Assembly (NCBI RefSeq): GCF_900129445.1
Contig: NZ_FQVT01000008.1
Location: forward strand, 1-64,000
Direction: 5' to 3'
From: Salegentibacter echinorum
GTDB lineage: Bacteria; Bacteroidota; Bacteroidia; Flavobacteriales; Flavobacteriaceae
Length of the DNA: 64,000 nt
Every line of letters starts with the position of its first letter. Positions within the stretch are counted from its first letter, which is position 1. A program made the translations under genes and the position numbers. Shown here piece by piece: positions 23,095 through 26,597 of this stretch. The notes under the pieces were generated by a model. The model made no database searches. It was not told the origin of the DNA and worked only from the letters and a program-made list of their open reading frames with translations.

Positions 23095-24993
23095 ATGAGT
23101 GACGCCCTAAAACACGAATGCGGAATTGCCCAAGTACGCTTACTGAAACCCCTGGAATATTACAAAGAGAAGTATGGCACCGCTTTCTACGGAATTAACA
23201 AAATGTATTTAATGATGGAAAAACAGCATAACCGTGGCCAGGACGGGGCTGGTTTTGCCAATATTAAATTGAATACTGCGCCGGGAGATCGCTACATTAG
23301 TCGTATTCGTTCTAATGAAGCGCAACCTATTCAGGATATTTTTGAACAGATTAACAGCAGGATCAATTCAGAAATAAAAGAAAATCCCGAGTATGCCAAT
23401 GATGTTAGCTTACAAAAAAAGCACCTGCCTTATGTGGGCGAAGTGTATCTTGGGCATGTAAGATATGGCACTTTTGGAAAAAACAGCATTGAAAGTGTTC
23501 ATCCGTTTCTTAGACAGAACAATTGGATGCACAGAAATTTAATCGTCGCCGGTAACTTTAATATGACCAATGTAAATCAGCTTTTTAACAGCCTGGTGGA
23601 ATTGGGGCAACATCCCAAGGAAAAAGCCGATACTGTGACCGTGATGGAAAAGATTGGTCATTTTCTAGATTCTGAAGTAGAAAAACTTTACAATAAGCTT
23701 AAAAAACAAGGCTTTAGTAAAGTTGAAGCTTCTCCTGTGATTGCAAAGAAACTAAATGTTGCTAAAATTCTGAAGAAGTCTGCGAAGACCTGGGACGGCG
23801 GTTATGCGATGGCCGGCTTACTAGGGCACGGTGATTCTTTTGTACTTCGGGATCCCGCGGGAATTAGACCTGCTTATTATTACAAAGACGATGAAGTGGT
23901 AGTTGTCGCTTCGGAAAGACCGGTAATTCAAACTGCTTTCAATGTAGATTTTAACGATGTACATGAGCTTCCCCCGGGGAATGCCATCATCACCAAAAAA
24001 AGCGGAAAGGTTTCCATAAAAGAAATTCTAAAACCTTTAGAACGAAAAGCCTGTTCCTTTGAACGTATTTATTTCTCCCGCGGAAGCGATGCCGAAATTT
24101 ATAAGGAACGAAAAATGTTGGGTCGTTTATTAATGCCCGAAGTTTTAAAATCTATAGACCACGATACCATTAATACGGTATTTTCTTTTATTCCGAATAC
24201 CGCTGAAACAAGTTTCTATGGGATGGTAGAAGCTGCACAAGATGAGCTTAACAAACAGAAGAACGATGCGATTTTGGAGGAAAAGGAAACACTCACAGAT
24301 GCGCGTCTCAAAGAAATCCTGGCGCATAGGTTACGCACCGAAAAAATAGCCATTAAAGATGTAAAACTAAGAACTTTTATTACCGAAGACAGTAGTCGGG
24401 ATGATCTGGTAGCGCATGTTTATGATGTTACTTATGGTGTGGTGCGACCAAAGGACAACCTGGTAATTATAGACGATAGTATTGTGCGAGGCACCACTTT
24501 AAAGAAAAGTATTATTAAAATGCTCGATAGACTTAATCCTGAACAAATTGTCATCGTCTCTTCAGCGCCACAAATTCGCTATCCAGATTGTTATGGGATA
24601 GATATGGCACGCTTAGAAGACCTGGTAGCTTTTAGGGCGACCCTCGAGCTTCTAAAGGACCACAATAAATACGAATTGGTTAAGGAAGTTTATGAAAAAT
24701 GTAAGCTGCAAGTAGATCTCGCCGATGAAGAGGTAAAAAACTTTGTAAAAGAAATTTACGAACCCTTTAGCGACCAGCAGATTTCAGATAAAATTTCAGA
24801 ATTAATTTGCGATAAAGATGTCAATGCAAAAGTAAAAGTAATCTATCAAACGGTGGACAATCTTCACAAGGCCTGCCCTAAGAACCTGGGAGACTGGTAC
24901 TTTACAGGAAACTACCCCACCTTTGGCGGGAATCGCGTAGTGAACAGAGCTTTTATAAATTTCTTTGAAGGAAATACCGATAGAGCTTATTAA
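23095..24993 (+). CDS. purF: Amidophosphoribosyltransferase (PurF family, long form)
   Basis: Transfers the glutamine amide to PRPP, first step of purine synthesis. 632 residues, over 100 more than the E. coli enzyme. The Ntn glutaminase nucleophile is Cys9 in KHECGIAQVRL, so an 8-residue propeptide must be removed. HNRGQDGAG and HVRYGTFG are glutaminase blocks, and the PRPP loop VIIDDSIVRGTTLKKS is intact. Extra length lies between residues about 95 and 215 and at the C-terminus (from about 530). The long form is usual in Flavobacteriia; whether another purF exists elsewhere cannot be seen. Confidence 0.9.
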   Translation: MSDALKHECGIAQVRLLKPLEYYKEKYGTAFYGINKMYLMMEKQHNRGQDGAGFANIKLNTAPGDRYISRIRSNEAQPIQDIFEQINSRINSEIKENPEYANDVSLQKKHLPYVGEVYLGHVRYGTFGKNSIESVHPFLRQNNWMHRNLIVAGNFNMTNVNQLFNSLVELGQHPKEKADTVTVMEKIGHFLDSEVEKLYNKLKKQGFSKVEASPVIAKKLNVAKILKKSAKTWDGGYAMAGLLGHGDSFVLRDPAGIRPAYYYKDDEVVVVASERPVIQTAFNVDFNDVHELPPGNAIITKKSGKVSIKEILKPLERKACSFERIYFSRGSDAEIYKERKMLGRLLMPEVLKSIDHDTINTVFSFIPNTAETSFYGMVEAAQDELNKQKNDAILEEKETLTDARLKEILAHRLRTEKIAIKDVKLRTFITEDSSRDDLVAHVYDVTYGVVRPKDNLVIIDDSIVRGTTLKKSIIKMLDRLNPEQIVIVSSAPQIRYPDCYGIDMARLEDLVAFRATLELLKDHNKYELVKEVYEKCKLQVDLADEEVKNFVKEIYEPFSDQQISDKISELICDKDVNAKVKVIYQTVDNLHKACPKNLGDWYFTGNYPTFGGNRVVNRAFINFFEGNTDRAY

Positions 24994-25034
24994 TGCCGTT
25001 AATCAATTTTTTGTGCCGTTCGTCTAAAATCATT

Positions 25035-25063
25035 TTGGAGACTGAAAAGTTTCTATACATTAG
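25035..25063 (+). promoter_or_regulatory. Promoter of sRNA-like element copy 1
   Basis: TTG at 25035-25037 and TACATTAG at 25056-25063 are 18 bases apart and lie 5 bases ahead of the conserved core. The -7 box has one mismatch to TAnnTTTG. Confidence 0.5.
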
Positions 25064-25067
25064 CATC

Positions 25068-25142
25068 ACCATAACATAAGTAGGTTAAGTTTATGGTAGA
25101 TTTGGGGCAAAAAAAGGTGAATCTCTCGATTCGCCTTTTTTT
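25068..25142 (+). ncRNA. Putative small RNA, copy 1 of 3
   Basis: A 75-base element. The first 43 bases (ACCATAAC...GGGGC) are nearly identical to copies 2 and 3. ACCATAAC can pair with GTT-T-ATGGT (one bulged base) around a 13-base loop; a purine-rich linker follows, then a terminator with arms GGTGAATC/GATTCGCC, a TCTC loop and a T-run (25111-25142). It is preceded by a promoter-like sequence and has no ORF. The RNA could be a trans-acting regulator; a match to the Rfam Flavo-1 family should be tested, as I cannot confirm it. Confidence 0.65.
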
Positions 25143-25330
25143 ATGCTTTTTTATGTTCTAAAATAATTCCAAAGTCTGGCATGGGGTATGAAAGCCTCCT
25201 TCTTTAAAAGAAAGATGGCTTGAACATGATCACAAACTGAAGTTATTTAATCAGAAACATCCTCATTTTCCTACATTTATATTTAAAAAAGTTAGTTTAT
25301 CTAATATTTTAACTCTTAGACTAAAATATT

Positions 25331-25359
25331 TTGTAATAAGCAATATTCATTCTACTTTG
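25331..25359 (+). promoter_or_regulatory. Promoter of sRNA-like element copy 2
   Basis: TTG at 25331-25333 and TACTTTG at 25353-25359, 19 bases apart, 5 bases before the core. The same arrangement is kept in copy 3 although the flanking bases differ. Confidence 0.55.
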
Positions 25360-25364
25360 GTGCT

Positions 25365-25441
25365 ACCATAACGTAAGTAGGTTAAGTTCATGGTAGATTT
25401 GGGGCAAAGAAAGGCAGATTTTTTCAAATCTGCCTTTTTTT
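25365..25441 (+). ncRNA. Putative small RNA, copy 2 of 3
   Basis: Same architecture as copy 1: 5' hairpin ACCATAAC/GTT-C-ATGGT, linker AGATTTGGGGC, then a terminator with 12-bp perfect arms (25410-25421 and 25426-25437), loop TTTC and a T-tract. The core differs from copy 1 at only two positions. Homology with copy 3 extends about 100 bases upstream, from 25266, covering the promoter. Terminator arms read GGCAGATTT/AAATCTGCC, different from the other copies but fully paired. Confidence 0.68.
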
Positions 25442-25803
25442 ATTTTGAACAATCTGCGCTACAATGGCTCTAAAACTTAAGGAAAAATTAGGCGAAACTA
25501 TTTTTGTGATTTTCTTTAATCTTCGTGACAAATTTTGTGTTTGTAAAAACCGGTTATTTGAGATAAAACCACAATCACTGTAATAATTAAAAATATTCGT
25601 GCATTCGTGGCAACTTTTCATATTTTAAATCTCAATTCATTTCTTTTATTCCTTCAATTTTCAATTAGGTTCAAATTTAAAATTGCAAAGATCTTTTCAT
25701 TTACATAAAACACAAATCCTACTCTATAAAACATTTATTTTCCTACAATTATGCTTCAAAAGTTATAGTTCAACTAATATTTTAACCTTTAAACTAAAAA
25801 AGT

Positions 25804-25832
25804 TTGTAGTAAGCAATATTCATTATACTTTG
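25804..25832 (+). promoter_or_regulatory. Promoter of sRNA-like element copy 3
   Basis: TTG at 25804-25806 and TACTTTG at 25826-25832 with a 19-base spacer, 5 bases before the core, as in copy 2. Confidence 0.55.
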
Positions 25833-25837
25833 GTACC

Positions 25838-25914
25838 ACCATAACGTAAGTAGGTTAAGTTCATGGTAGATTTGGGGCAAAGAAAGGTAGATTTGAAAAA
25901 ATCTACCTTTTTTT
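25838..25914 (+). ncRNA. Putative small RNA, copy 3 of 3
   Basis: The core from ACCATAACG to the GGGGCAAAGAAAGG linker is identical to copy 2. The terminator has 12-bp arms (25883-25894 and 25899-25910), loop GAAA and a T-tract, with GGTAGATTT/AAATCTACC pairs. The homologous upstream block begins at 25738, giving a duplicated unit of about 175 bases. Because arms change together between copies while the core is kept, selection for RNA structure is likely. Confidence 0.68.
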
Positions 25915-25933
25915 ATTTTAAAAATTCAGCATA

Positions 25934-25961
25934 AAAAAAGACCGCTAAAAGCGGCCTTTTT
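25934..25961. terminator. Two-way rho-independent terminator after sodA
   Basis: CCGCT and AGCGG pair around AAA, flanked by an A-run on one side and a T-run on the other, with a single A-C mismatch. It ends sodA on the minus strand and also backs up the terminator of sRNA copy 3 on the plus strand. Confidence 0.7.
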
Positions 25962-25988
25962 ATTCATAGTATTTAATAAGGAAGTTTC

Positions 25989-26597
25989 TTATTTATGCTT
26001 TGCATATCTACTACCTACTTCTTTCCAGTCAATTACATTGAAAAAAGCATCAATATACTCTGGACGTTTATTCTGGTAGTTTAAATAATAAGCGTGCTCC
26101 CAAACATCGATTCCCAGAATTGGAGTTCCTTCACATCCAATTCCCGGCATTAGTGGGTTATCCTGATTTGCTGTAGAGCAAATTTCTACTTTTCCACCTT
26201 CGTGCACACAAAGCCATGCCCAACCAGAACCAAATTGTCCTGCAGCCGCTTTAGAAAACTCTTCTTTAAAAGCATCAAAAGAACCAAAAGCATTGTCGAT
26301 AGCCTTTTCCAGCTCGCCGCTTGGCTTTCCGCCACCATCGGGAGACATTATTTCCCAGAATAAACGGTGGTTGTAAAATCCGCCACCATTATTTCTTACT
26401 GCTTTATTGGATTTATCAAGATTTTCAAGAATGTTTTCAATATTCTTTCCTTCTAAATCTGTTCCTTCTATCGCAGCATTTAATTTTTTAGTATAACCTG
26501 CGTGATGCTTTCCGTGGTGAATTTCCATGGTTTTAGCATCTATATGTGGTTCTAATGCATCAAATGCATATTTTAACTTCGGTAACTCAAAAGCCAT
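25989..26597 (-). CDS. sodA: Superoxide dismutase (Mn/Fe family, Mn-type residues)
   Basis: Converts superoxide to oxygen and peroxide; 202 residues, no signal peptide, so cytoplasmic. Metal ligands: His27 in [12 protein letters not shown], His in FYNHRLFW, and Asp/His in [25 protein letters not shown] and the later ANQDNP carry the Gly and Gln positions typical of Mn enzymes rather than the Gln/Ala pair of Fe enzymes; true metal use may be cambialistic. Transcribed alone from a box at 26641-26634. Confidence 0.94.

Follow-up and report, generated by a model that had tools for sequence, protein, structure and literature searches.

Sibling small RNAs (sRNAs) such as OmrA/OmrB, Qrr and the csRNAs are near-identical copies under one regulator, each with its own promoter and terminator; OmrA and OmrB adjoin each other. 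PMC11697453 names OmrA/OmrB, Qrr and the Cia-dependent csRNAs, and presents FopS and GibS, in connection with RbpB, as multicopy paralogous short sRNAs of Bacteroides thetaiotaomicron that end in a 3′ terminator. Among the Flavobacteriaceae, which the available portion of PMC9723704 terms understudied, 85 new RNAs are listed for Flavobacterium psychrophilum. Of these Rfp18 was tested; this sRNA is conserved, and F. columnare expresses its homologue (PMC9723704, same portion). Few other sRNA studies of this family were found among the literature matches listed.

The window examined here is the whole analysed stretch of 64,000 nucleotides from Salegentibacter echinorum. It carries three units of about 75 nt (approximately 70–80 nt), which start at positions 25068, 25365 and 25838, where the initial annotation had placed them. 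They lie between purF (amidophosphoribosyltransferase; 23095–24993, plus strand) and the convergent sodA (Fe/Mn superoxide dismutase; 25989–26597, minus strand), both named from that annotation and from their translations. Every unit comprises a pair of direct repeats, a −7 box, 5 nt, the core ACCATAACRTAAGTAGGTTAAGTTYATGGTAGATTTGGGGCAAAR and its own intrinsic terminator, all on the plus strand. For copy 1, the repeats GCCGTTAATC (24995–25004) and GCCGTTCGTC (25015–25024) stand 20 bp apart within a promoter region at 24995–25024, the −7 box TACATTA occupies 25056–25062, and the predicted transcript extends over 25068–25142 (core 25068–25112, terminator 25109–25142). The two half-sites of copy 2 (25293–25324, conserved C at 25301 and 25321) precede the box TACTTTG at 25353–25359 and the sRNA at 25365–25441 (terminator 25406–25441). 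Those of copy 3 (25766–25797, conserved C at 25774 and 25794) precede the same box at 25826–25832 and the sRNA at 25838–25914 (terminator 25879–25914).

The near-identical core recognised initially measures 45 nt; it is the same in copies 2 and 3, and copy 1 differs at 3 positions. Likewise, 5 nt separate the −7 box from the core in every copy, and the terminator stems have changed between copies with pairing kept, both as first described. Identity is 85% between copies 2 and 3 (176 bp) and 71% between copy 1 and each of them (120 bp). A 33-base core pattern allowing up to 3 mismatches hits exactly three places in the 3.96-Mb genome, all in the window, and neither this search nor the covariance model revealed a fourth copy in the own genome. 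A further terminator-like hairpin, CCGCT/AGCGG with A- and T-runs, is located between copy 3 and the end of sodA at about 25932–25962; it is probably sodA's own terminator.

A covariance model was built from the three window copies. The search of relatives proposed in the initial annotation gave matches in 121 of 149 Flavobacteriaceae genomes, own genome included, with at least two matches in 100 of these 121. Of the two refuting outcomes named there, the lack of any homologue with conserved pairing was thus put to the test and did not occur. Chance is excluded because the window units are conserved in other genomes. Draws at order and phylum level, run with stricter filters at the loss of some weak matches, gave 12 of 119 and 26 of 296 matching genomes, respectively. 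All 26 of the latter are Flavobacteriaceae; by listing order, the unmatched genomes of the phylum draw are 4 Flavobacteriaceae and 266 from outside the family. The order-level matches are 11 Flavobacteriaceae and one weak match (G185, locus L148, E 7.5e-4), which was judged spurious as a unit from outside the family because no core is present there. No match came from plasmids or phages, and two core patterns found none in viral contigs either. All of 14 unmatched family genomes (12 of the 28 in the family draw and two from the order draw) keep purF. Within about 1.5 kb of it no diverged unit was found, the best core match being at most 2 bases above that of one shuffled copy, and the absence of the array from this place is therefore real in these 14 genomes.

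Both purF and sodA flank the array in 77 of 100 loci, purF alone in 14, sodA alone in 6 and neither in 3, a count in which one place figures twice and in which locus ends account for part of the missing flanks. Wherever the arrangement could be scored, purF precedes the units and is read in their direction (91/91), and sodA is convergent (83/83). The relatives hold 1–6 copies per locus, with six in F. davisii (L055; the sixth is diverged) and in G001. Neighbouring units are a median of 225 bp apart, 89 of 105 spacings falling between 160 and 300 bp. Where the interval is split, in G007, G134 and G014, a unit is kept on both the purF and the sodA side (L096/L097, L106/L105 and L119/L118). Three genomes of the own genus (G149, G154, G160) have extra units elsewhere with similar promoter repeats upstream, as judged by eye.

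The copies also differ by position. In 38 of the 76 loci with at least two units, subtype GTTCATGG is found on the purF side and GTTTATGG on the sodA side; the remainder comprises both C (29), both T (3), the reversed order (2, window included) and other orders (4). Since the subtypes are ordered and position-specific, the copies have been kept apart and not homogenised. Several single loci deserve mention. Extra or lone units occur near cystathionine/methionine lyase-like genes at L257:3051 and L079:4418, L257 also having a BshB1-like deacetylase near its unit (names by eye). The F. covae array contains a transposase-like gene, again named by eye (L067:2200-3327). In G155 the promoter and core start are partly duplicated in tandem inside the array (L266:1782-1852), which may show how copies arise.

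The anatomy of the family was analysed on 205 units, taken from the window and from the 99 loci that were left after one duplicate had been removed. A hairpin with a T-run is found in 202 of these units, and its left arm takes 56 different forms; full pairing inside a unit follows from the way the hairpins were called, and arms swapped between units pair at 75%. Among 148 distinct aligned sequences, 13 of the 16 terminator pairs changed on both sides, in an alignment that was fitted to the covariance model and that took the place of a MAFFT alignment, which misaligned the terminators and gave no covariation. The first proposal, a family of short RNA genes with an invariant core and covarying terminators, is thus borne out by these comparative data at the level of sequence.

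The transcripts of copies 1–3 are predicted to fold better than 200 of 200 dinucleotide shuffles (z −3.96, −3.99 and −4.39). Within them, the proposed core hairpin ACCATAAC/GTTYATGGT is plausible but unproven, as the core alone folds no better than shuffles: four core versions gave z values of −0.60, −0.64, −0.48 and −0.02, and the F. davisii version folds into a different shape. The pairs of this hairpin are nearly invariant in the 148 distinct sequences; in helix 3, 99.6% of cells are paired, changes are to G-U, and one cell has changed on both sides. The two candidate contact regions, TAAGTAGGTTAAGTT and GATTTGGGG, are intact in 192 and 198 of the 205 units and rank among the most conserved stretches of the unit. 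The transcript start was placed where conservation begins; the core opens with A in 190 units and with G in the other 15, which fits transcription starting at that base. A protein-coding small ORF was considered and ruled out: there is no conserved reading frame, because some units carry a frame-shifting one-base insertion (TAAGATTT) and the stop codons vary.

For the promoters, 198 sequences were aligned on the −7 box, which is of the Bacteroidota type (TAnnTT) family-wide. The motif TTG-N18/19-TAC(T)TTG originally read from the window survives in part. The box of copies 2 and 3 conforms to it and that of copy 1 does not; the upstream TTG falls away, since the 198 promoters have no conserved TTG at −33 and show a T-rich stretch instead. 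Further upstream lies a feature absent from the initial annotation, direct repeats with a 20-bp period. A motif near [GC]C.TTYANCTAAAA occurs twice, with peaks at −65/−64/−59 and at −45/−44/−39, and some promoters have a third copy at −85. Base identity at lag 20 reaches 0.452 versus 0.306 in shuffles, and is at most 0.352 at the other lags from 8 to 31. When 4 of 5 key positions are required, 184 of the 198 promoters have both half-sites at a distance of 20 bp; because these promoters also supplied the half-site, the count is in part built in, unlike the contrast between spacings. All five positions match in 109 of the 198. Shuffled promoters with such repeats numbered 8.1 on average and 17 at most; half-site pairs at lags of 15, 17 and 24 occur in 1, 2 and 2 promoters. 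Together, the repeats and the T-rich −33 region without TTG have the look of activator-dependent promoters. As a search motif the repeat is unspecific: the three copies rank 1st, 3rd and 5th in the window, where 36 places score 8 or more versus 14 in one shuffle, and therefore no regulon can be read from it. In the first of two units at nine loci (L115, L122, L131, L135, L136, L137, L138, L142 and L143), AGTAGGAAAA directly follows the proximal half-site with the repeats kept; this candidate extra regulator site may provide a second input on one array member.

The 20-bp repeats suggest an activator, by their spacing one of LytTR or AraC type. The LytTR half-site consensus is [TA][AC][CA]GTTN[AG][TG], and direct repeats spaced by two turns are bound by AraC-type and other protein families as well. 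Compared by eye, both half-sites of window copy 1 match 8 of 9 LytTR positions; in the family half-site consensus of the 198 promoters, TTT is found more often than GTT. As far as the accessible sections of the two sources go, LytTR sites are direct repeats separated by 11–13 bp just upstream of −35 (PMC6193735), and AgrA acts on two direct repeats (PMC4227749). With half-sites of 9 bp, a period of 20 corresponds to an 11-bp spacer and falls within this LytTR definition (PMC6193735, as accessible). Eleven LytTR matches were counted in the own genome. The number of LytTR genes fails to distinguish 14 genomes without the array (0–36 LytTR matches) from 14 with it (4–37), and second loci examined as a clue to the regulator gave nothing useful.

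It is a serious possibility, if somewhat short of an even chance, that the activator is of AraC type or another kind and not LytTR, or that the repeats are a UP-like element read by RNA polymerase alone. The partial match of the half-sites, the other families with the same geometry and the LytTR counts that do not track the array all speak for it. With regard to the UP-like element, the strict 20-bp spacing and the TT and C conserved in both half-sites argue for a dimeric protein over an A/T-rich element. This question touches the activator alone, and sibling sRNAs would fit with any answer to it.

Taken together, the units are rather probably a Flavobacteriaceae family of sibling sRNAs that would be co-activated by one activator and would most likely act by base pairing. 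One transcription factor, a LytTR response regulator or an AraC-type protein, would bind the direct repeats two helical turns apart and activate all copies, so that a signal would be answered by a quick burst of RNA, larger with copy number. The sRNA would then act in trans, most likely by pairing with several mRNAs through its loop (AUAAGUAGGUUAA) and/or its linker (AGAUUUGGGGC), perhaps near start codons as for FopS. A start-codon complement, UUYAUGGU, would lie in the 3′ arm of the hairpin. Where Y is C, as in 132 of the 205 units, it would face the 5′ arm with an A-C mismatch, which would let a real AUG displace that arm.

Searches for partners gave no convincing mRNA target, whether by loop complement in 15 same-genus genomes, by linker complement or by pairing at the starts of sodA and purF. 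With units included, the loop complement (2 mismatches) matched 214 times versus 447 for the reversed pattern, and the linker complement (3 mismatches) 152 times versus 65. Inspection of 20 non-unit linker places led us to reject them as targets, 17 being the end of one dispersed repeat and the other three (L241, L242, L243) other sequence. Compared with plain shuffles, the sodA start pairs slightly better (mean z −0.83; 23% of 82 loci below −1.5) and the purF start does not (mean z −0.06; 7% of 28 loci below −1.5), and neither result is convincing. Since no target was found, the mechanism is proposed from the layout of the units: short genes that each stand alone, strong terminators, invariant stretches that would lie exposed, and multiple copies under a single presumed activator, as in OmrA/B, Qrr, the csRNAs and FopS.

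The dispersed repeat merits a description of its own. Its end, CCCCA[AT]ATCTACCATAAC, was seen in same-genus genomes at L235-L240 and L244-L254 and in the own genome at G000:C19:376080. In 16 of the 17 a long hairpin comes next (CCTATGCTGTTTTTA/TAAAAACAGCATAGG, by eye); some lie near contig ends, and the surroundings vary. By eye, about 24 nt of this end are, with two gaps allowed, complementary to the linker and hairpin arm of the sRNA, which may be chance or may connect the sRNA with a mobile element.

The chief rival of base pairing is protein titration. The units could be decoy or scaffold RNAs, like CsrB/RsmZ or 6S, whose invariant 45 nt bind a protein or the ribosome and whose copies raise the titrating dose. 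Near-total conservation of the whole core exceeds the needs of a pairing seed, which we count against the base-pairing reading, and the multiple copies and the failure to find target sites in the 15 same-genus genomes point the same way. However, the decoy has no known partner, and nothing in the own genome matches RRM_1, the protein class by which FopS is bound. Overall we regard titration as possible but not likely. Doubtful is a broader proposal in which the family would be a core global sRNA of the Flavobacteriaceae, a signal-controlled hub without an RRM partner. Its 45-nt core would be fixed by pairing with many start-codon regions and, in addition, by the hold of some protein or of the ribosome, and the purF-side and sodA-side copies would have taken on separate roles through a single base, C or U facing the AUG, and through their promoters.

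It is highly improbable that the Bacteroides FopS family includes these units as distant members. The FopS model of Rfam aligns to the 3′ part of the unit (22.9 bits, E 0.062), UUCAUGGU and AGAUUU before the terminator are shared, and both RNAs are multicopy and similar in length. Yet the RF04319 scores (22.4 and 18.8 bits in the window, besides the 22.9 bits above) are far under the 56-bit gathering score, and unrelated families score similarly on the terminator. At E ≤ 0.001 the model finds nothing in 31 relatives and matches a single one of 198 phylum genomes, where the hit (L160) is the complement of an ORF start. RRM_1 (PF00076) has 0 matches in the own genome with a positive Bacteroides control, and the 5′ part of the unit is predicted to be paired in contrast to the single-stranded 5′ seed of FopS. 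Membership was rejected on the score, the relatives, the L160 artefact and the missing RRM_1. The L160 match itself (L160:1501-1569, from another flavobacterial family) reaches 43.9 bits and is a caution on seeds that mimic start codons.

Finally, a selfish or mobile palindromic element in place of an RNA gene is barely credible: the copies are in tandem and the dispersed same-genus repeat ends in linker-complementary sequence, but orientation and purF-sodA position are constant wherever scored, the own genome has 3 copies only, plasmids, phages and (for two core patterns) viral contigs have none, and promoter and terminator are both conserved.

To return to sibling sRNAs, the known families help to place the array. 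No family of Rfam 15 reaches its gathering score there, and the Rfam check first suggested found Flavo-1 and Bacteroidales-1 neither at gathering score nor among 62 weak matches. Among the literature matches listed, with few subscription papers within reach, no description of the array was found; of four core strings one alone occurs in print, in one unrelated virus paper. The high conservation of the array, its presence in 121 of 149 genomes and the missing Rfam match at gathering score make it an obvious entry point to regulation in the Flavobacteriaceae: one short interval holds a putative regulator that may serve the whole family.

Like the window family, Flavo-1 and Bacteroidales-1 are candidate Bacteroidota RNAs. 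Rfp18 comes from the same bacterial family as the window units, but is described, in the available portion of PMC9723704, as pairing via a third stem-loop, whereas the window unit has two predicted stem-loops; the window family may be among the 89 Rfp RNAs of that source under another name. FopS, the nearest in kind and in shared sequence words, belongs to the same phylum and is multicopy, paralogous and closed by a 3′ terminator like the window units. In contrast, the accessible part of PMC11697453 gives it 14 copies at many loci, not a purF-sodA array, and an RRM-1 protein, RbpB, as partner, a class without a match in the own genome of the window units. OmrA/OmrB, Qrr and the csRNAs have no sequence relation to the array at Rfam gathering score. 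The likeness to OmrA/B and Qrr lies in sequence features, near-identical units that each have their own promoter and terminator, and in a putative site for a common regulator, the 20-bp repeats of 184 of the 198 promoters. In design the window family resembles the FopS, OmrA/B and Qrr RNAs.
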